Assembly: GCF_002958735.1 (NCBI RefSeq) | Contig: NZ_PPGH01000037.1 | Span: 434,001 to 498,000 of the forward strand | From: Chromatium okenii | Lineage (GTDB): Bacteria; Pseudomonadota; Gammaproteobacteria; Chromatiales; Chromatiaceae | Direction: 5' to 3' | DNA length: 64,000 nucleotides | Part shown: one piece after another, positions 11,768-58,549 of the stretch | How positions within the stretch are numbered: the first letter of the stretch is position 1 | How the letters are laid out: every line of letters begins with the position of its first letter | Program-made: the position numbers and the translations under genes | The notes under the pieces: model-generated | The model's input: only the letters and a program-made list of their open reading frames with translations | What the model was told of the DNA's origin: nothing | Databases searched by the model: none

Positions 11768-11834
11768 TTTAATTTTCCTCAAAAAAATAAAAATTTGGCA
11801 GTACCTTGATCAACAAGATTAATGTAACTTATTA

Positions 11835-12959
11835 TACCAAGTTAATATCAGATTTTCGGTTCTTAATCTCCGATAATAGCGAACTTATCACTCATTAACG
11901 ACAGTATTTCATCATGGTATTGATTTGCGTTACTAAAAAACGATTGACAGGCAAACTTGAAATCATTGAATGATTCAAAATAGCGGTTGTAGAGAATTTT
12001 CTTTTTGAAAAATTTCCACAGTCGTTCAATAAGATTAAGGTTTGGCGCATAAGGTGGAAGAAACATTAGTTTAGTTCGTGAAGTTTCAAGATACTTACTA
12101 ACCGCTTTTGAACGATTATAGCGAGCATTGTCACAAATGACGTAGATTACAGCAGCGGTCGGATGTAACTGCTCCAATTGTTTCAATAGTGCAATAGTAG
12201 ATTCTGAATTGATTGTGTCGTCATAACGCACGACTGGTTCTAGCTTATCCAGACTCATAGCACCGTTAATGTTGATACGTTTACGACCAGTGTTAGAACG
12301 AATTTCTTGTTCATCACCACGCTTAATCCAAGCATTGGAGATCACTGGATTATGTTGAGGATGTACCGCATCCATAAAGTATATTGGGTCTTCTTCGCCT
12401 TTGTTTTCTTTGACTTTTTGTATTCAACTAAAAATTCTTTTTGCGCTTCTGGATCAGCTTTTCCTGGAATCAACTTCGGTTTTTTATAAACATAACCAAG
12501 ACGATGTAACAGTGCTGTCATACCGCTTTCGGTATAGGTCACTTCAAAGATATTTTCAACCCAATGAGCTATCTCTTTTGCCGTCAGATAAAGGTTTTCT
12601 TGTAAGTGGTTGTTGAGAAGAGCGAGTTCTATATCGTCAAGCAAACACTCTGAGCCACGAAAAGCAATATGCACAAGTAATTCAATGCCGCCTTGCTGAT
12701 AACGCTTAAAATGATTGCGCACAGTATTAGGGTCTACTTGCAAGACTTCGGCGACTTGTTCGGCAGTCCAGCCTGTGGCTAAAAGAACGACAGCTTTAAT
12801 TCGGTCAGCCTCTCGTTTATTGCGGGTATGCCGATGCAAATTACGCAACTCGTTTAGTTTATCTGTTGGAAGGTGGTAGTCAATCATAGGTAGAATTCCA
12901 CAACATCACTTAGTTGATTGCACCAAGCATATTAACGAAAAAGCTAAATGAAAAGGGTA
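11835..12959 (-). mobile_element. IS630-family element, copy A (frameshifted)
   Basis: Termini read TACCC... and ...GGTA, flanked on both sides by TA (11833-11834 and 12960-12961), as expected for IS630 insertion at TA. The element is 1125 bp, one base shorter than copy B at 23620-24745, to which it is nearly identical in inverted orientation. The missing base breaks the transposase. Confidence 0.9.
11863..12887 (-). pseudogene. IS630-family transposase with a 1-base deletion
   Basis: The N-terminal part (12887 to about 12415) carries the helix-turn-helix region (EQVAEVLQVDPNTVRNHF). The C-terminal part (from ATG 12375) carries the DDE domain (MDAVHPQHNP, VICDNARYN, APNLNLIERLWKF). Compared with the intact copy B, one G is absent at about 12418, in the stretch coding Glu-Tyr-Glu-Lys, shifting the frame. 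Some IS630 relatives use programmed frameshifting, but since copy B reads through in one frame this is best seen as an inactivated copy or a base-calling error. Confidence 0.85.
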
Positions 12960-13056
12960 TACAAGCAGTTATTAAATCGCTATTTATTGAAGCACTAATA
13001 AAATTAACTTTGCAGATTTCAACTTCAATCGATTTTTGTGTCGTATATCATCCACT

Positions 13057-17693: not shown

Positions 17694-20600
17694 AACGCTC
17701 AAGTTCCTGCGCAATCATGGCATGAACGGTCAATGCTGCTTCAAAGTCGTAATCATCAATCTCTTGCTGCATTTGCGCCAGCGTCTTCGCTAACGCCGTT
17801 CCTGCCAGCAATGGCTGCAACATCTCAATGACTGTTGCGGCATCGGTATCGTCATCTGCCAACAGTTCGTACAACTGCGCCAACAGCGGCGCAATCGCCG
17901 CGACATCGACCGTTTGCGGCGGCGCAGCAACAGATGCAGTCGGTGGTGCAAATACCGCCAAACCATTGATAACCGGTTCTAATTCTGCAACCGTCGCGGC
18001 AAGCAAAGCGTCAATTTCCATCGGTTCTGCCTGCGCATGACACGCCGATTCCAACGCTTGTGCAGTCGCTGCCACTGCCTGCGCTCCGATATTGCCGGCG
18101 ACGCCTTTGAGCGTGTGGGCGCAGCGCGTCGCAGCTTCTGGGTCATCGCTCGACTGCGCCGCAGCAAATTGCGCCGCAAAATCGCTTTGGCTGGCGTGGA
18201 ATTTCACCAGCAACCGTTGATAAAGCTGCGCATTATTTTGGGTAATTGCCAACCCAGCAGCGGTGTCAATGCCGGGGAGAAATCTAAATCCCCCCAACCC
18301 CTCTTTTTCAAAAGGAGGCTTGATTGATAAATCCTCCCAACCCCCCTTTTCTAAAGGGGGGCTTTCTTCATCTCCCCCCTTTGTAAAAGGGGGGCTGGGG
18401 GGGATTTCTTCCGCAGCAAAAGGGGAGCTGGGGATTTCGGGACTGATCCATTTCGCCATGACCGTAAACATCTCGCGCACATTGATCGGTTTGCCGATAT
18501 GGTCATTCATTCCGGCTTCCAGCACTTTCTCGCGGTCGCCGGTCATCACGTTGGCGGTCATCGCAATCACCGGCAAATGTTGATATTGCGGCTGTTGGCG
18601 AATGCGCCGGGTCGCTGCGTAACCGTCCATCACCGGCATCTGGCAATCCATCAACACGCCGTCATAGTGCGCCAGCGCCAGCATGTCGAGCGCCTCTTGC
18701 CCATTATTTGCTACTGCGACGTGCAGCCCGTTGATCGTCAGTAATTCTAAAGCAAGCTCTTGATTAAGTTCGTTATCTTCCACCAGCAATACCGATGCTC
18801 CGCGCAAACGTCCAATCGCTTCGGAGGCTTCTTCGTGACGCCCAGCGGCGCGACTACTCGATGCGATTTCCTGTCCGCTGGCTTGCATGATGGTATCTAG
18901 CAGCGTCGAAGGTGTGACTGGTTTGGTCAGAAATCCTTCGATATTCAAACCACTCGCCGCAGCCAGCGCCTCATCGCGTCCGTAAGCTGTCACCATAATC
19001 AGCGTTGGAACGTGCGTAATGTGTGCGTCGTTCTGAATGGCACGAATCGTATCCACGCCGTCCATGCCCGGCATTTTCCAATCCATTAACACCTGATCGT
19101 AGGGCGCTTCACGGTCAGTCTGTTCGAGCAGTGCAATTGCCGTTGCGCCCGTGCCTGCTTGATCCACTTTGAAGCCAAACGCCGAGAGCATTTCCGACAA
19201 AATTTCCCGCGCAGTCGGATTGTCATCAACCACCAACACGCGCAACGGATTGATTTCAGATAATTTAATACGCGGTTGCGAACATTCACCTTGCTGGCGC
19301 AGCAGCCGCGCTGTAAACGAAAAAGTGCTGCCCCGACCCAGCGCACTTTCTGCCCAAATGTTTCCGCCCATCATGTCGGTCAGCCGTTTAGAAATCGCCA
19401 GCCCCAAACCCGTGCCGCCGTATTTGCGGGTGGTAGACATATCTGCCTGACTGAACGACTGAAACAGATGCGCCTGCTGCTCGGCAGACATGCCAATTCC
19501 GGTATCACGCACCGCAAAATGGAGCAGCACTGCATCTACACTCAGTTCATCAACACTGACCGAAACCACGATTTCGCCGCCACGTTCGGTAAATTTGACC
19601 GCATTATTGCCGAGGTTAATCAAAATCTGCCCTAACCGCAGCGGATCGCCAATCAGCGCCGTCGGGACGCTGGGATGCAGATCAAACATCAGCTCCACGC
19701 CTTTTTCTTCCGCTTTCAGTCCGACCAAATTGGCGAGATTGTCCATCACATCTTCCAGACGAAAATCAATCACTTCCATGTTCAATTTACCGGCTTCGAT
19801 TTTCGAGAAATCCAGAATGTCGTTAATGATGCCCAGCAGCGCCTCGGCGGAACGGTGCACTTTTTCGATGTAATTGTGTTGCTTCTGGTCAAGTTCAGTT
19901 TGCAATGCCAGATGCGACATGCCGATGATCGCGTTCATTGGCGTGCGAATTTCGTGGCTCATATTGGCCAGAAAATCCGATTTCGCTCGCGTTGCACCTT
20001 CCGCCACGAGCAGCGTCTGCTCTAAATCTTCTTGTAATTGCTTGAGATTATCGATGTCAGCACGAATTCCCACCATTCGCGTCGGTTGACCTTCGGCATC
20101 GCGCTCAATCACTTGTCCAGCATCGAGCAGCCATTTCCAACCACCATCGGCGCAGCGGCAGCGATATTCGGCGCGATACGCAGCAGTAGCGCCAGCAAAA
20201 TGCGCCTGTAAACGTTCGCTGGCGCAGTCACGATCATCAGGATGAATCTGCTGCTGTAAAAACGCCCAGCCGCCGCTGATTCGCGCCCATTTGTCATCGG
20301 TTTCGCGCAGCAGCGCCGGCAAATGACCGAGCATCGTGGCGAAATTGGCATTGATGAGCACCTCGCCGCGCTGCGGAAAATAATCCCACAAGCCCAAATT
20401 TGCGGCGCTCGCTGCGGCTTCTAACCGCGCTTCACTTTCGCGCAACCGCTCTTCCGATTGTTTGCGATCAGTAATGTCGAGCAGCCAGCCCAACACGCCC
20501 GCTTCACCCTGATAATTGAACACCATGAAATTGGCGAGCATGTCGCGGGATTGGCGATTGCGCCCGTAATGCCGCAGCTCGTAATTTTCGATCCGCCCGT

Positions 20601-23589
20601 CACGCGCCAGCCGCTGCATGATGATTTCCCGTTCTTGGGGATCGACGTACATCGCGGCGGCTGGCTTGCCAATTTCGGTTTCGATCATGTCCAGAAATTT
20701 CGAGTTAGCGAAACGAATGATGCCTTGCACTGAAATCGCCACGCCCAGCGGCGTGGTATCGAGCAGCGATTTCAACTGCGCTCGTTCCTCCGCCAGCGCG
20801 GTTTCCATCTGTTTACGGTCGCTGATGTCGATCACCGTGCCCGCAAGATTGATGGTGTTGCCCGCAGCATCGTAGCTCGCTTGCCCCTGTTCGTAGACGA
20901 AGCGAATTTTTCCGGCGCGGTCGATGATGCGATATTCAACGGTGTAGGTTTGATGCGCGAGCACTGCTGCCACAATTTCCGTTTCCACCCACTCCATGTC
21001 ATCGGGATGAATCAGGCTGGCAAAAGATCGCGCTGCGTTATGAATAAAATCTGCGGCTGGATAACCACTTAATCGCTCCACTTCGTCGCTGACAAACAGC
21101 ATCGTCCAGTGTTCATCCAACAAACAGCGATACACCGTGCCCGGAATGGTATCGACCAAATTTCTGAAATTTTGCTCCCGCGCCGCGAGCGCCAGCGCCG
21201 CTTCTTTGCGCTCGCTGATGTCTTTGAACACGACGACGCTGCCGACCAATTGACCCGTTTGATACAGCGGCACGGCGACCGATTCCACCGATAGACTGCT
21301 GCCGTCCTCGCGCCAAAACAGCTCATCATCGACTTGACGGCGTTCACCTTCCCGGAATCGCCCCGCAGTCAGATCGGCAAGGAGCGCATCGGTGCGGGTG
21401 ATGAGGTGAATTGACTGCCCGCGCAAGGTTTCTACTGTGTAACCAAGCATCTGCGCTGCCGCATGATTGCAAAAGCTAATCTGTCCTGCCGTGTCTAAAC
21501 CGATAATGCCTTCACCAGCGGAGTTGAGAATCAAGGCGTTATAGGCTTGCGCGGCTTTAACCGCAGCTTCGGCGCAGCGCAGTTCAGTACGATCAAACGC
21601 AACACCGTCGATCCGCGTCGGCTGCCCAGTCGCATCCACACTGGTTTTGCCGCGCACGGCAATAAACCGCTCGCTGCCATCCGCCCACAGCAGACGATAT
21701 TCGAGATCAAGGTCTTTCTCGCAGCACAGCGCCGCTGCGAATGCCTGCGTCACCCGTTCCCGATCATCGGGGTGAAGCAGGGCGATTAACGCGCTGGGCT
21801 GCGGTGTCGTTTCCGCCTCCAGCCCAAACATGCGCAGCACCCGTTCATCCCATGTCCAACAGTTGGTTTTGAGATCGCCGCTCCACAACCCGATCTGCGC
21901 TGCCTCCAGCGCCAGCTGGCGCGTGTTTTCGGCTTCACGCAGCGCCAGTTCTACCAGCTTGTTTTCACTTAAATCTTTGGTCATGGCGACAAAATGTGTC
22001 ACCTGTCCGCTTTGATTTATCACTGGCGCGATGGAAATTGATCCCCAGTAAATCTCACCACTTTTCCGACGGTTACAGATTTCGCTGTGCCACACCTGAC
22101 CGGAGCGAATCGTTCTCCACAGCTCGTCATAACGTTCCGGCGGCGTGAAACCACTTTTTAAGACGCGAGGATTTTGCCCAATCACTTCTTCCGGGGTGTA
22201 ACCAGTGACGGTGGTAAACATCGGATTGACGTGTTCGATGCGTCCTTCCACGTTGGTAATCACGATGCACAGCGGGTTTTGCTCCACCACCTGCGCCAGC
22301 TTGCGCAGCTCATTGGTGCGAGCATCGACTAACACTTGTAAACGGTCGCGGCTGCGGTCGCTCAACCAGATGATGAGCGCAGTCAAACCCAACACCAGCA
22401 GCGCAATGCTCAACAACGCGGCAAAAATCAGGGTGCGCATCGTCCGATAGGGCGCTAACGCATCCGCCAAATCAATCTCGGTCGCCAAACCGATACCCAG
22501 CCGCGCCGACCAATGCCACGCGCCGAACACCATCACGCCACGATAATCCCGATAACCAGTTGTATTCACGCCGTTATTGCCATGTAACGCTGCGCTTGCC
22601 ATCTGCGTCAGCGGCCATTGCGCCCGCAGCGCGAATGGTTGATAGCCCTTCAACAACTCGCCACCGGGATCGCGCACTCGCAGCCCTAACATATTGGTTT
22701 TACCGCGAAAATAGCTGGCAACTGGCGTTAACGTTTCAGCAAATCGGGATGGCGTTAACACCTGCGCCTGACGATTAAACACATAGCTTTCGCCGCTACC
22801 GTGCACCTGCGCCACCTGCATGATCGGGCTAAATTCAGTAAGTGGATCAAAGCACAACGCAAACACCGCGATCACTGCATTCTCGGCATTTCGTATCGGT
22901 GTCAGCAAAAACATCGCTGCTCGCGGTGGAAGATACGCACCATTTGCATCTTCGGAATTGGTTTCGAGGTAAACCGGCGGCACAAACACGGTTTCGCCAT
23001 TGAGTGCTCGATTGAGCAATTCCGGTTGCCACACGGCAATTTGAGTGCGAGCGCCTAATTCAAATCCCCCCAACCCCCCTTTTTCAAAGGGGGGCTTTTC
23101 CTCCCCCTTTAGCAAAGGGGGCTGGGGGGATTTGTCAACAGACGGCTTTTCTTTCTCCCCACTTTGAAAAAGGGGGGCAGGGGGGGATTGATCAAAAAGA
23201 GAATTTAATTGCGTCGCCGCCAGCGTGGTGCGATCCGGCGCAATTAAATAAAACCCAGTGGCGTTCATGTAATTAACTTGCGGCCGCAGCAAACGGTGCA
23301 GCAATTCTTTAAATGGACTGTTATTCAACGTATCGGCAGTGCGCGGCAATTCTAATAATTGAGTTGTCCACGGCAATAGTGCTGGCGCTTCTGCCATCAC
23401 CCGAATTTCGCGCATGTGACTATCCAGCCACATTTCCAACGCCTGACTTGCTGAGGCATTGACACTGGTGAGCGTTTCGCCGAATTCATGGCGCAATTGC
23501 CGTTCCATCGTGTGCAGACCGTAAAGCACGACCATCAACACAATGGTTAAAAACACGGTGACTGCTGCAAAACTGAGTTTCCAGCTCAT
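17683..23589 (-). CDS. Giant hybrid sensor histidine kinase (PAS repeats, two REC, HPt)
   Basis: A 1968-residue membrane sensor. TM1 is at about 5-25, a periplasmic Cache-like sensor at about 30-380, and TM2 at about 386-410. About six PAS/PAC modules follow (roughly 430-1200; for example [18 protein letters not shown] and GYPAADFI). HisKA has [11 protein letters not shown] with the phosphoacceptor His near 1213, then HATPase boxes ([21 protein letters not shown]). Receiver 1 has its Asp near 1502 and receiver 2 near 1646 ([10 protein letters not shown]). HPt has [12 protein letters not shown] with His near 1824. Two stretches, about residues 133-176 and 1721-1768, are encoded by a palindromic DNA repeat and read [19 protein letters not shown]-like; they look like inserted linkers. 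Start ATG 23589 has AGAGGA upstream. An IS630 copy begins 31 bases upstream, cutting it off from the REC/HD-GYP genes. The ligand is unknown. Confidence 0.9.
18286..18407. repeat. GC-rich palindromic repeat, copy 1 (inside kinase, before HPt)
   Basis: Begins AAATCCCCCCAACCCC and ends GGGGGGGATTT, with internal C-run/TTTTTCAAA/G-run hairpins and an extra internal unit starting AAATCCTCCC. It is read in frame by the kinase gene on the other strand as a Pro/Lys/Gly-rich linker between receiver 2 and the HPt domain. Four related copies lie elsewhere in the window. Confidence 0.88.
23062..23189. repeat. GC-rich palindromic repeat, copy 2 (inside kinase sensor domain)
   Basis: Starts AAATCCCCCCAACC and ends GGGGGGGATT, with three C-run/G-run hairpin units. 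It is in frame within the periplasmic sensor region of the kinase and encodes about 43 residues rich in Pro, Lys and Gly. Confidence 0.88.
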
Positions 23590-23619
23590 CAAAATTCCTC
23601 TAATTAACACTCGCATTTA

Positions 23620-24745
23620 TACCCTTTTCATTTAGCTTTTTCGTTAATATGCTTGGTGCAATCAACTAAGTGATGTTGTGGAATTCTACCTATGATTGAC
23701 TACCACCTTCCAACAGATAAACTAAACGAGTTGCGTAATTTGCATCGGCATACCCGCAATAAACGAGAGGCTGACCGAATTAAAGCTGTCGTTCTTTTAG
23801 CCACAGGCTGGACTGCCGAACAAGTCGCCGAAGTCTTGCAAGTAGACCCTAATACTGTGCGCAATCATTTTAAGCGTTATCAGCAAGGCGGCATTGAATT
23901 ACTTGTGCATATTGCTTTTCGTGGCTCAGAGTGTTTGCTTGACGATATAGAACTCGCTCTTCTCAACAACCACTTACAAGAAAACCTTTATCTGACGGCA
24001 AAAGAGATAGCTCATTGGGTTGAAAATACCTTTGAAGTGACCTATACCGAAAGCGGTATGACAGCACTGTTGCATCGTCTTGGTTATGTTTACAAAAAAC
24101 CGAAGTTGATTCCAGGAAAAGCTGATCCAGAAGCGCAAAAAGAATTTTTAGTTGAATACGAAAAAGTTAAAGAAAACAAAGGCGAAGAAGACCCAATATA
24201 CTTTATGGATGCGGTACATCCTCAACATAATCCAGTGATCTCCAATGCTTGGATTAAGCGTGGTGATGAACAAGAAATTCGTTCTAACACTGGTCGTAAA
24301 CGTATCAACATTAACGGTGCTATGAGTCTAGATAAGCTAGAACCAGTCGTGCGTTATGACGACACAATCAATTCAGAATCTACTATTGCACTATTGAAAC
24401 AATTGGAGCAGTTACATCCGACCGCTGCTGTAATCTACGTCATTTGTGACAATGCTCGCTATAATCGTTCAAAAGCGGTTAGTAAGTATCTTGAAACTTC
24501 ACGAATTAAACTAATGTTTCTTCCACCTTATGCGCCAAACCTTAATCTTATTGAACGACTGTGGAAATTTTTCAAAAAGAAAATTCTCTACAACCGCTAT
24601 TTTGAGTCATTCGATGATTTCAAGTTTGCCTGTCAATCGTTTTTTAGTAACGCAAATCAATACCATGATGAAATACTGTCGTTAATGAGTGATAAGTTCA
24701 CTATTATCGGAGATTAAGAACCGAAAATCTGATATTAACTTGGTA
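23620..24745 (+). mobile_element. IS630-family element, copy B (intact)
   Basis: 1126 bp with termini TACCC... and ...GGTA, flanked by TA at 23618-23619 and 24746-24747. It carries an intact transposase and is nearly identical to copy A in opposite orientation. It sits between the lone receiver gene and the hybrid kinase gene. Confidence 0.93.
23692..24717 (+). CDS. IS630-family transposase
   Basis: A 341-residue transposase. The N-terminal half is a Tc1/mariner-like helix-turn-helix region (WTAEQVAEVLQVDPNTVRNH near residues 44-63) with a winged-helix middle. The C-terminal DDE domain has the first Asp in YFMDAVHPQHNP near 173, the second in VICDNARYN near 256, and the Glu in NLNLIERLWKFFKKK near 290. 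It is complete, so this copy may still be mobile. Transcription is divergent from the kinase gene. Confidence 0.93.
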   Translation: MIDYHLPTDKLNELRNLHRHTRNKREADRIKAVVLLATGWTAEQVAEVLQVDPNTVRNHFKRYQQGGIELLVHIAFRGSECLLDDIELALLNNHLQENLYLTAKEIAHWVENTFEVTYTESGMTALLHRLGYVYKKPKLIPGKADPEAQKEFLVEYEKVKENKGEEDPIYFMDAVHPQHNPVISNAWIKRGDEQEIRSNTGRKRININGAMSLDKLEPVVRYDDTINSESTIALLKQLEQLHPTAAVIYVICDNARYNRSKAVSKYLETSRIKLMFLPPYAPNLNLIERLWKFFKKKILYNRYFESFDDFKFACQSFFSNANQYHDEILSLMSDKFTIIGD

Positions 24746-24766
24746 TAGCGCGGCAACAAATCAACA

Positions 24767-48900: not shown

Positions 48901-49373
48901 TGGGCGAAGAAGTCACCGCGCAGGGCACGTCGCGTTTCGTGGATAGTTCAGTCGAACGAATGCAGGTCAAAATCAACGGCTTAGTTGGTGAGCGGCATGT
49001 CTTGGTGTGCAACGGACGGCGGGTGCCGCTGCGTTCGACCGGACGCAAAGCGGAGTTTGTCGCCGGCATTCGGTTCAAAGCGTGGAGTCCGCCGTCGGGA
49101 TTGCATCCGACGATTCCGGCGCATAACCCGTTGATTTTTGAGATTGTTGATCTGTGGAATCGGCGCAGTCTCGGCGGTTGCACCTATCACGTCGTGCATC
49201 CGGGCGGACGCAGCGAATCGAGTTTTCCGGTGAACAGTTATGAAGCAGAAAGTCGGCGAATTGCGCGGTTTCGGGTGATGGGACACACGGCAGGAGTGAT
49301 TGATCCGCCGCCAGAAATACCGGCTGGCGAGCAGCCGTATACGTTGGATTTGCGGTATCAACCGCGCTGTTAA
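45981..49373 (+). CDS. Transglutaminase-like protein fused to DUF2126
   Basis: A 1130-residue protein with an N-terminal bacterial transglutaminase-like domain. The catalytic Cys is in GSGKGSCRDTGWLLVQ near residue 179, the His in FTDLHAWAEVYVPG near 228, and the Asp in GWIGLDPTSG near 244. The C-terminal DUF2126 region follows, with LTMGGEPTFVSIDDMDGAEW near 330 and LDGRHTGTGGGNHVTLGG near 735. The family is often encoded with circularly permuted ATP-grasp and alpha-E proteins in a proposed peptide-forming system, but neither is adjacent here. The stop TAA overlaps the first base pairs of repeat copy 3. The substrate is unknown. Confidence 0.88.
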   Translation: MSILVALNHKTEYHFDRSVNLSPHVVRLRPAPHCRTAIRSYSLNIEPAEHFINWQQDAYGNYLARLVFPEKTRKLSIEVDVIAEMITINPFDFFLEDYAFYYPFKYEPDLRKELSPYLELTEGGPLLRKWLTGVNRKRRETVYFLVDLNQRLQQDIGYVIRLEPGVQTCEQTLGSGKGSCRDTGWLLVQILRHLGLAARFVSGYLVQLTADVKSLDGPSGTEKDFTDLHAWAEVYVPGAGWIGLDPTSGLFASEGHIPLACSPAPRSAAPITGATDKCEVEFYFHNEISRIHEDPRVTKPYTPEQWTAIEALGHQVDAELVANDVRLTMGGEPTFVSIDDMDGAEWNIDALGPTKKPLAEDLLRRLKQHFAPGGLLHLGQGKWYPGEQLPRWALSCYWRKDGAPVWRDPALFGQENQDYGHTAADAERFIRTLAGHLGVDPANAAPAHEDVWYYLWREARLPVNVNPLDNKLNDPNERQRIARLFNKGLNQIAGFVLPLRWWGFDATGSWKSGRWALRDGNLFLIPGDSPLGLRLPLDALPYVPEVELDQVPERNPLEAVAPLRSPFDEVARRYSQRSAPAQAPQTIREQGAQPHDLAAHYGRIAPADDSHHLRQQIALPDEMPPELIRTALCVEPREGRLYCFLPPLTHLEHWLDLVMCIEDTAAELQLPIIIEGYEPPRDPRLQKLAVTPDPGVIEVNIHPAESWDALVRDTRILYEEARLARLGTEKFMLDGRHTGTGGGNHVTLGGATPADSPLLRRPDLVQSLIAYWQHHPSLSYLFSGMFIGPTSQAPRVDEARDDRLYELEIAFQQMPTGAIPQPWLVDRILRNLLTDVTGNTHRTEFCIDKLYSPDSAAGRQGLVEFRGFEMPPHYQMSLAQLLLLRTLVARFWQEPYTRKPIRWGTELHDRFLLPHFARLDFEDVICDVRRAGYAIETAWFEPFFEFRFPHYGDLVTAEGIQLELRAAIEPWHVLGEEVTAQGTSRFVDSSVERMQVKINGLVGERHVLVCNGRRVPLRSTGRKAEFVAGIRFKAWSPPSGLHPTIPAHNPLIFEIVDLWNRRSLGGCTYHVVHPGGRSESSFPVNSYEAESRRIARFRVMGHTAGVIDPPPEIPAGEQPYTLDLRYQPRC

Positions 49374-49519
49374 ATCCCCCCCCTGCCCCCCTTTTTCAAA
49401 GGGGGGAGTAAAGAAAAGCCCCTTTTATACAGGGGCTTTCTTATTGGTACTTTTCACGCTGTGCTCTATTAAAATACTCAAAATAGCCCCCCTTTGAAAA
49501 AGGGGGGTTGGGGGGATTT
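49372..49519. repeat. GC-rich palindromic repeat, copy 3 (between convergent genes)
   Basis: 148 bp from AAATCCCCCCC to GGGGGGATTT. The left end overlaps the stop TAA of the DUF2126 gene; the right end supplies the stop TAA of the bacteriohemerythrin gene on the other strand. Inside is a terminator-like hairpin (AGCCCC ... GGGGCT followed by TTCTT, about 49417-49441). Confidence 0.88.
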
Positions 49520-49938
49520 AAACTGCGCTTAAATCACTCACGCCTTTTGCTTTTACATGCAGCGAATACAGCATATCTTCATCAGCGATATGTCAATGAA
49601 CCAGTCTTGCGTAATATCCAATGCGCGATCTGCCAGCGCCTGACTGGGGCCGAACATCATCAAATCGTTTTCTAATTCGTCTAACTTCCGAAAAAACCCG
49701 CATGAAGGATTAAATGCTCCTTCAAACCGGTATTCATGCTTGCGCATAAATGCCACTTCGGTTTGAAAATGCTCCTCGGCGTAATTGCGCATAAACGCCA
49801 TTGCATCTTCCACCGCGTTTTTGCCTTCGCGTTCTAAAATGTCGTCATATAACCGATGCGCCGCAGCAAAAAAACCTGATGTTGCGCGTCAATATCAGCA
49901 ATCCCGATGCTATAAATATCTGACCATTCTCTTAACAT
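49518..49938 (-). CDS. Bacteriohemerythrin (two apparent 1-base deletions)
   Basis: A di-iron oxygen-binding four-helix protein of about 140 residues. The start MLREWSDIYSIGIADID at 49938 leads to the first iron ligand in DAQHQ. The frame breaks in a T-run near 49872, then continues AAHRLYDDILEREGKNAVEDAM, HFQTEVAFMRKHEYR and TQDWFIDH. It breaks again near 49590 (one C missing before ATC) and ends HVKAKGVSDLSAV. The ligand set H..H..HxxxE..HxxxH/HxxxxD looks complete once joined. It may carry oxygen or sense it in a microaerobic/anoxic lifestyle. Confidence 0.78.
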
Positions 49939-54439: not shown

Positions 54440-54451
54440 ACCTTTTTGATC

Positions 54452-54550
54452 AATCCCCCCCTGCCCCCCTTTTTCAAAGGGGGGAGAAGAAAGCCCAGTT
54501 CACTAAAGGGAGAGAAAAGCCCCCTTTGAAAAAGGGGGTTGGGGGGATTT
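54452..54550. repeat. GC-rich palindromic repeat, copy 4 (between rpsB and tsf)
   Basis: 99 bp beginning AATCCCCCCCTGCC and ending GGGGGGATTT, with two C-run/TTTTTCAAA/G-run hairpins. It fills most of the rpsB-tsf spacer, which is a single operon in relatives, and must be transcribed. Confidence 0.88.
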
Positions 54551-54582
54551 AAAATGCAGTCAAACATTTAGATAGGTGAAAC

Positions 54583-56838: not shown

Positions 56839-57627
56839 GTGGACACTGCGACTCCCGCTGTTTCCGTTACCGCCGAGCATAACGGCTCCATTCCTCGGCA
56901 TGTAGCGATCATCATGGATGGCAATGGTCGCTGGGCAAAACTGCGCGGACGTCCGCGCACCGTTGGTCATCGTGAGGGCGTAAAAAGCGTTCGTGCCGTG
57001 GTCGATGAATGCCTCCGGCGCGGCGTGAAGACGCTCACCATTTTTGCGTTTAGCAGCGAAAACTGGCAGCGCCCACGCAGCGAAGTCAACATCCTGATGG
57101 AGCTGTTTATGACTGCGCTGCGCGGCGAAGTCCGGCGCATGAACGAAAACGGTGTGCACCTGCGCATCATCGGCGAACGCAGCGCCTTTCCTGAAAAACT
57201 CCAGCGGCGCATTGCCGACGCCGAGGCACTCACCGCCCACAACACCGCACTGTTGTTGCAAGTCGCCGCCAACTACGGCGGACGCTGGGACATTACCCAA
57301 GCGATGCGCCGCTTGCTGATTGACGTGCAAGCAGGGCGATTAAATCCTGATTTACTTGATGAAACCACGCTCGCTGCTTATTTGTCTTTTCCCGATATTC
57401 CCGATCCTGATTTGTTCATCCGCACCGGCGGCGAGCAGCGGTTGAGCAATTTTGTCCTGTGGCAATCGGCGTATGCCGAGCTGTATTTCACCGATGTTCT
57501 GTGGCCAGATTTCAATGAAACGGCGTTTAGCGCGGCGCTCGACGATTTTGCCAATCGGCAACGGCGGTTTGGGCGCACCAGTGAACAAATTGAATCGTGG
57601 GTGACATTCAATGACCGAAGCAAATGA
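56839..57627 (+). CDS. uppS: Undecaprenyl diphosphate synthase
   Basis: The cis-prenyltransferase that elongates farnesyl diphosphate (from IspA-type enzymes) to C55 undecaprenyl diphosphate, the lipid carrier for peptidoglycan and the surface glycans made in the island above. 262 residues from GTG 56839. VAIIMDGNGRWAK holds the catalytic Asp, HREGVKSVR, FAFSSENWQRP, and FIRTGGEQRLSNFVLWQSAY the second conserved block. The 3' end overlaps cdsA by 17 bases. Confidence 0.96.
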   Translation: MDTATPAVSVTAEHNGSIPRHVAIIMDGNGRWAKLRGRPRTVGHREGVKSVRAVVDECLRRGVKTLTIFAFSSENWQRPRSEVNILMELFMTALRGEVRRMNENGVHLRIIGERSAFPEKLQRRIADAEALTAHNTALLLQVAANYGGRWDITQAMRRLLIDVQAGRLNPDLLDETTLAAYLSFPDIPDPDLFIRTGGEQRLSNFVLWQSAYAELYFTDVLWPDFNETAFSAALDDFANRQRRFGRTSEQIESWVTFNDRSK

Positions 57628-58549
57628 TTCGTTAGGAAAATCCCCCCAACCCCCCTTTTCCAAAGGGGGGCTTGACACCTCGCCCGTTGCAAAAGTAGGG
57701 CTTTCTGATTCTCCCCCCTTGGAAAAAGGCGGGCAGGGCGGGATTTTGTTACGCCTCCGCACTGCGCTGATATTGGGCGCAGTGGTTATCGCCGCGATTC
57801 TGTGGCTGCCGACGCCAGTATTTGCCATCGGCATGGCGCTGGTGCTGCTGCTGGCTGGAGTGGAATGGTGCAACTTGGCGGGATTGACGCAGCCGGCATT
57901 GCGGACGCTGTATCTCTTTGGTCTCGCGGCAGTGATGACGCTGTGCTGGTTCCGCCCAGAGTTTCAAATGGGATTGCTGGCGCTGGGCTTGCTGTGGTGG
58001 GCGCGACAAATGCTGTTGCTAACGCAGGTGCGCGACATCACGCCGCAGAGCGGGCTGCAACCAGAATTGTTATTGGTTGGTTTGGTGATTTTAGTTGTGC
58101 CGTGGATCGCATTGGTGGCACTGCATCAACTGCCGGTCGTCGGATCGTTGCTGGTGCTGTTTTTGATGATTCTGATTTGGAGCGCCGATTCACTGGCATA
58201 TTTTGCTGGGCGACGCTGGGGACGCACCAAATTAGCGCCGATCATCAGTCCCGGCAAAACCCGCGCTGGCGTTTACGGCGCATTGGCTGGTGCGGTGATT
58301 TGTAGCGTAGCGCTGGCGCTGTGGTTGAAGCTCGATGTGGTGGAAAGTATTCGCGTGCTGATGATTTGCAGCGCCAGCGTGGTGATTTCCGTCGTTGGCG
58401 ATCTGTACGAAAGTTTGCTCAAGCGCCAGCGCGGATTGAAAGATTCCGGCGATCTGCTGCCCGGTCACGGCGGTTTATTGGATCGCATCGACAGCCTGAC
58501 CGCCGCCGCGCCACTGTTTGCGCTGGGCATGATCTGGGTTTTTTCCTAA
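57611..58549 (+). CDS. cdsA: Phosphatidate cytidylyltransferase with a repeat-encoded N-terminal extension
   Basis: Makes CDP-diacylglycerol from phosphatidic acid and CTP in the inner membrane. 312 residues with about eight membrane segments. The C-terminal signature [20 protein letters not shown] followed by GLLDRIDS is complete, preceded by [18 protein letters not shown]. Residues about 9-46 are encoded by palindromic repeat copy 5 and read [12 protein letters not shown] and [13 protein letters not shown], a hydrophilic Pro/Lys/Gly linker placed before the first membrane helix. Without it the protein would have a normal length of about 270. Start ATG 57611 lies within the end of uppS. Confidence 0.94.
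57638..57746. repeat. GC-rich palindromic repeat, copy 5 (inside the cdsA start region)
   Basis: 109 bp beginning AAATCCCCCCAACCCCC and ending GGGCGGGATTT, somewhat more diverged than the other copies. In frame with cdsA, free of stop codons in that frame. Confidence 0.85.

Follow-up and report, generated by a model that had tools for sequence, protein, structure and literature searches.

In Chromatium okenii the gene for phosphatidate cytidylyltransferase, cdsA, carries a copy of an abundant palindromic repeat in frame shortly behind its start codon. The best explanation, to which we assign a probability of about 0.83, is that a selfish hairpin element was inserted into cdsA of a Chromatium ancestor and has been tolerated there as a linker, which would imply that the element belongs to a mobile family, that it entered before the species split, and that its translated product is disordered and without function. 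This reading builds on features observed directly, namely the in-frame position, the occurrence at the same site in a second Chromatium genome, what resembles a remnant in C. weissei, the lack of the element in outgroups, the size of the repeat family and the retention of frame at its copies.

In the window, which denotes the whole stretch of 64,000 nucleotides analyzed, the open reading frame of uppS (undecaprenyl diphosphate synthase, 56839–57627, plus strand; Pfam Prenyltransf, E 1.7e-84) is followed by that of cdsA (57611–58549, plus strand), which starts with the ATG at 57611, has its stop at 58549 and encodes 312 amino acids including the repeat-encoded segment, as read from the sequence and the list of open reading frames. 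The first nine codons (57611–57637, plus strand; MTEANDSLG), starting with the same ATG in the second Chromatium and in C. weissei, precede the repeat AAATCCCCCC...GGGCGGGATTT (57638–57746, unstranded as are its units), which comprises 109 bp and extends over codons 10–45 and one base into codon 46. The position and frame that the sequence-only reading had given for this repeat are borne out by sequence and reading frame list, as is the overlap of the uppS 3′ end with the cdsA start, which amounts to 17 nt and is intact despite the repeat in cdsA; the added residues do lie ahead of the first membrane helix, their number being about 36 instead of the earlier 38 or so. The repeat harbors a left hairpin unit CCCCCTTTTCCAAAGGGGG (57651–57669) and a right hairpin unit CCCCCTTGGAAAAAGGCGG (57714–57732), the latter a rare TTGG variant, and inspection and alignment point to a possible decayed middle unit CGCCCGTTGCAAAAGTAGGG (57681–57700) inside 30 nt that are missing from the copy of the second Chromatium.

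CdsA is essential in Escherichia coli. In the C. okenii protein the cytidylyltransferase domain (Pfam CTP_transf_1, E 4.8e-54, 184 bits versus a cut-off of 24) spans residues 48–305, starting immediately past the repeat segment, and Foldseek returned CdsA (4q2e, E 2.9e-7) as the top solved structure for the predicted model; domain and fold place the protein among the CdsA enzymes, and it scores 177 bits with the NCBIfam equivalog PRK11624.1, under the cut-off of 385. Besides matches to the repeat peptide, one CdsA match is found in the C. okenii LaCa assembly (G000). In the AlphaFold model, calculated with 22 aligned sequences (mean pLDDT 84.7), the first helix comprises residues 42–65 and residues 1–41 have pLDDT values below 50, which is partly expected, and hence at most suggestive of disorder, because most of the aligned sequences lack that segment. 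The N-terminal extension is probably a floppy tail ahead of an intact fold.

The second Chromatium (G002), a genome assembled separately from that of C. okenii, carries the element at the same site of cdsA, in the same orientation and frame and 30 nt shorter. At this site C. weissei (G006) has MTKANDGLEKSNQPPAGGIWLRLRTAL (KSNQPPAGGI), encoded by DNA that resembles the two outer repeat ends fused to each other, and the segment looks like a collapsed in-frame remnant of the repeat. In the other CdsA N-termini compared no repeat was seen; that of L004, for example, begins MSELNSTLRAASSLQRRTFTAF. The comparison with related genera proposed earlier supports the suggestion that a protein-coding repeat is tolerated in CdsA, as two Chromatium genomes have it in frame and a third retains a remnant-like segment.

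CdsA of C. weissei is 88% identical to the C. okenii enzyme and that of G002 79%; because C. weissei is the nearer of the two, the simplest history would be one insertion before the three-way split, followed by in-frame collapse in C. weissei. A single shared insertion is also favored by the TTGG variant of the right unit, which is present in both cdsA copies although it is rare, with whole-genome matches of 4 in C. okenii, 1 in G002 (the cdsA copy itself) and 0 in C. weissei. That C. okenii and G002 acquired the element separately at one and the same site was considered and is less likely given this shared rare unit. Apart from the 30-nt indel, the two cdsA elements are identical at 78 of 80 positions, compared with 1205 of 1560 positions of uppS–cdsA outside 57611–57750, and both differences, read by eye, are third-position changes in glycine codons. 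Such high identity is not predicted by plain descent of an old neutral insertion, and the local recombination, conversion or constraint needed in addition may account for it.

The hairpin unit of the family, CCCCCTTT-NNN-AAAGGGGG, was found with at most two mismatches 441 times in the C. okenii assembly (3,784,749 bases in 45 contigs, about 89% complete), 245 times in G002 and 97 times in C. weissei. A reversed control pattern gave 0, 2 and 1 matches at the same limit, and the ratio of 441 to 0 in C. okenii argues that the cdsA repeat is not a product of chance. Full elements end in AAATCCCC and GGGGATTT. Among 86 elements from samples of the three genomes 54 consist of one unit, 24 of two, 7 of three and 1 of four, and part of the copies show inverted paired hairpins in a REPIN-like manner. 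Full elements are poor in stops, with a mean of 3.3 of the six frames open versus 1.6 in base shuffles and 2.3 in random genomic stretches, which should ease their survival inside genes. In the window a repeat finder located arms at 18281 and 18324 (one element), 23057, 49369, 54447 and 57633. The copies at 18281–18421 and 23057–23203 are both in frame in the same 1977-residue open reading frame on the minus strand, the copy at 49369–49533 overlaps the end of an upstream open reading frame by about 5 nt, with other sequence at this place in C. weissei, and that at 54447–54564 lies outside predicted genes. The window also contains a pair of almost identical stretches in inverted orientation, each about 1.14 kb long (11833–12975 and 23604–24747) and perhaps an insertion sequence; by eye, their ends differ from those of the repeat.

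The distribution of the family across the class is patchy. Whole elements were matched in 7 of 73 genomes and a half-element pattern in 10 of 274 genomes of the class, both counts including C. okenii itself; the half-element matches number 72 in C. okenii, 83 in G220 and 1 to 8 in each of the others. G220 is a distant genome from another family of the class, its matches are split 36/47 between the strands, and independent expansion or transfer is possible in this case. The repeat peptide gave no tblastn match to plasmids at E 0.01, and among 398 genomes of the phylum it matched C. okenii LaCa alone at the strict limit of E 1e-4, G002 and C. weissei evidently being outside this draw. Rfam returned a single match for 57400–58000, well under its gathering score, and the peptide and DNA strings of the repeat were not found in open-access literature by a string search, which may miss other wording.

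Insertion in frame is not confined to cdsA. Coding frame was scored on both flanks of elements with at most two mismatches in sampled DNA of C. okenii (464 kb), C. weissei (715 kb) and G002 (757 kb), excluding elements closer than 300 nt to the end of a sampled stretch. For C. weissei and G002 together (48 elements), 21 elements continue a single open frame from one coding flank to the other, 3 are flanked by coding sequence on one strand but in differing frames, and for 1 the flanks share their frame and a stop interrupts it; the remainder have one coding flank (14), none (7) or flanks on opposite strands (2). In the three cases of differing frames the upstream frame stops at or before the element edge, so that the element lies between genes and no gene is broken. 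Against a chance expectation of 1/3, the probability is 2.6e-7 for 21 of 25, 6e-8 for 21 of 24 and 4e-6 for 18 of 22, the last count taking each protein once and including one orthologous pair. One of the 21 in-frame cases is a 100-residue open reading frame of doubtful reality, and the cdsA copies are not among the 21, having been scored as "one flank coding" because their left flank is too short. The hairpin units of these 21 cases are read in the three phases at a ratio of 15:6:0, the third phase being unused; the openness of each phase fails to explain this ratio, and several of the cases are related to each other.

Of the 18 distinct proteins with in-frame elements in C. weissei and G002, 9 were compared with protein families, as were CcmI and MurC of C. 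okenii. The in-frame hosts include MutL, UvrC, PriA, HrpA, isochorismate synthase, a GH1 glycosidase, an ABC transporter ATPase, an AcrB-type pump and a MenE-like ligase, which scores under the menE cut-off, and the elements occupy N-termini, a C-terminus, linkers and the interior of domains. The gene cdsA, regarded earlier as a stringent example, is not exceptional, since the family is found in frame in many conserved genes of the genus. In UvrC of G002 the element lies within the RNase H domain; UvrC of the outgroup G004 aligns over residues 5–446 and 474–626 with 12 nt between, corresponding to an empty site. The UvrC RNase H domain itself was detected once each in G001, G002, G003 and G004 and in neither C. 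okenii nor C. weissei, and the result for the UvrC protein agrees; for this pair a loss of uvrC or incomplete assemblies are possible. MutL of C. okenii and C. weissei has a 108-nt insert in common that is missing from MutL of G002 and G004. Between the two species the insert shows 5 synonymous and 11 nonsynonymous codon differences, compared with 18 and 3 in 79 flanking codons; its length and frame have been preserved, its peptide has not. In both species an element also separates the start codon from the hydrophobic signal stretch in a small lipoprotein-like gene (L045:2056-2619; G006:C2:60255-60309), identified by eye as LptE. In C. okenii, MurC (L042:3611-5146) ends in about 40 element-encoded residues and the next open reading frame begins at its stop.

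Fewer copies retain an open frame in C. okenii. Of its 38 scored elements, 6 are in frame, 7 have differing frames, 2 contain stops, 17 are coding on one flank and 3 on neither, and 3 have flanks on opposite strands; the frame is thus open in 6 of the 15 elements with same-strand flanks. MurC is one of the 7 cases with differing frames; its frame terminates together with the element and is left unbroken. The low retention is put down to PacBio indels: PriA and an RND pump, broken in C. okenii, are intact in C. weissei with an element or remnant, making assembly indels the likely cause for these two, for which alone intact C. weissei orthologues were seen. MutL of the C. okenii assembly is split into two open reading frames near residue 220, upstream of the insert, and MurG (L042:2266-2934) loses its frame at an element of four units. 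MurG is essential, and an assembly indel is therefore the likely reason for its broken frame. These broken frames, e.g. in MurG and PriA, raise the question of whether the cdsA insert or its frame could itself be an artefact of a homopolymer-rich PacBio assembly, whose long contigs have a reported PacBio RSII coverage of 24–27x (PMC6374484). As the element recurs in G002 with its frame unchanged, and C. weissei has a remnant-like segment that also keeps the frame, such an artefact is extremely improbable.

Translation of CdsA could also begin within or after the repeat, which would then be wholly or partly an untranslated spacer. The sequence-only reading had placed the next plausible starts downstream of 57748, which stands for later codons, but in C. 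okenii in-frame TTG codons are found inside the repeat at residue 37 and at the repeat end at residue 46 (57746–57748, plus strand), with matching or neighboring ones in G002, and the right arm of the repeat is G-rich. In C. weissei, in contrast, the stretch from its own ATG to the first helix contains no further ATG and neither GTG nor TTG, and upstream of this helix (RTAL) the ATG at 57611 is the only one of these codons common to the three genes. The ensuing peptide is common to them as well (MTEPNNSLG in G002, MTKANDGLE in C. weissei) and the outgroup N-terminus MSELNSTL resembles MTEPNNSL; furthermore, the insert lengths in C. okenii and G002 differ by a multiple of three. A start in or behind the repeat is thus quite improbable, and the start at 57611 proposed earlier, with translation through the repeat into a flexible extension, is the best-supported reading, as the shared ATG and the outgroup-like peptide suggest.

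A role of the hairpin at the RNA level, e.g. in lowering cdsA translation or in providing a signal for cleavage between uppS and cdsA, is considered unlikely. The repeat region is predicted to fold at -82 kcal/mol (z -3.7 versus shuffles), as would be expected of any palindrome, and NEMIS hairpins are reported RNase III targets (PMC2229807). However, C. weissei retains uppS followed by cdsA without most of the hairpin, and the family is present in many unrelated genes; an RNA-level side effect of the cdsA hairpin may nevertheless exist. It is very unlikely that the extension has been recruited for a function in CdsA, for instance as a docking tail. The unusual conservation between C. okenii and G002, with both changes in third positions of glycine codons, would fit such a function, but most of the segment is missing in C. 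weissei, it is unstructured and of low confidence in the AlphaFold model, and the similar insert in MutL evolves without visible peptide constraint.

In the preferred reading, a selfish insertion tolerated as a linker, the cdsA repeat would be one copy of a selfish high-copy element of inverted hairpins that entered cdsA of a Chromatium ancestor in the variable stretch separating start codon and first membrane helix. Being GC-rich, without stops in the cdsA frame and of frame-keeping length, it would have added its Pro/Gly/Lys-rich residues with the fold undisturbed; selection since then would hold the frame and probably not the peptide, and C. weissei would subsequently have deleted most of the insert in frame. 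It can be proposed more tentatively that an undescribed Chromatium hairpin family with stop-poor arms and no recognized transposase invades conserved genes, essential ones included, is translated, and gives rise to disordered linkers by in-frame shrinkage. If true, a free-living bacterium would have in this family an ongoing supply of linkers for its proteins.

The best-known cases of palindromes that encode protein come from Rickettsia, with reduced genomes and small populations. Apparently the same process is seen here in a free-living phototroph: three related genomes show, in identifiable genes, insertions held in common, sites that are empty, a remnant in frame and drift of the peptide, and they offer a means of testing how selfish DNA is accommodated by conserved enzymes and whether new linkers arise from such insertions. 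For annotation, the extra CdsA N-terminus should be regarded as an insertion and not as a conserved domain.

With respect to mobility, no Y1 transposase (PF01797) was found in C. okenii, G002, C. weissei or G025, the search being positive in 5 of 14 genomes including the E. coli control; six matches are found in G004, which itself has no element match. None of 27 full elements has a target-site duplication of at least 3 nt (shuffled mean 1.4 at 3 nt), and 2-nt flanking duplications number 2 versus 1.0 in shuffles, with the element ends fixed at AAATC/GATTT, so that a shifted end could hide a duplication. By eye, no GTAG/CGTC tag was seen at the hairpin foot at the ends (AAATCCCC / GGGGATTT) of these 27 elements.

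Several known systems resemble the Chromatium repeat. Rickettsia palindromic elements (RPEs) are described as palindromic repeats of 105–146 bp that occur in several copies and are tolerated in frame in conserved protein genes, and an RPE-carrying Gmk is described as translated and active with altered substrate affinity (PMC2229807, citing Ogata 2000 and Abergel 2006). The Chromatium elements are alike in being multi-copy palindromes in frame inside conserved genes. They differ in host group, in their arms with C/G runs and in their ends, AAATCCCC and GGGGATTT, as judged by descriptions of RPEs rather than by RPE sequences. Reports also exist of small elements with inverted repeats whose open frames are fused to genes, namely QMITE of Coxiella and RU of enterobacteria (PMC5896051, PMC2229807), and small inverted repeats with open frames inside genes are found here as well. 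Contrary to QMITEs, which are located at the 3′ ends of functional genes, Chromatium copies occur at N-termini, in linkers, in domains and at a C-terminus, and unlike in classical MITEs no target duplication was detected at the elements. REPINs consist of hairpin singlets and inverted doublets at high copy number (PMC3116915), and intragenic REPs have been reported, many of them in replication and repair genes (PMC3733652). The Chromatium family shares the high-copy singlets and doublets as well as insertions in genes such as those of MutL, UvrC and PriA, but differs in that no GTAG/CGTC tag was seen at the element ends and no PF01797 match was found in the three Chromatium genomes. The Chromatium repeat is regarded as a new sequence family, and the phenomenon it represents is known from RPEs and intragenic REPs.
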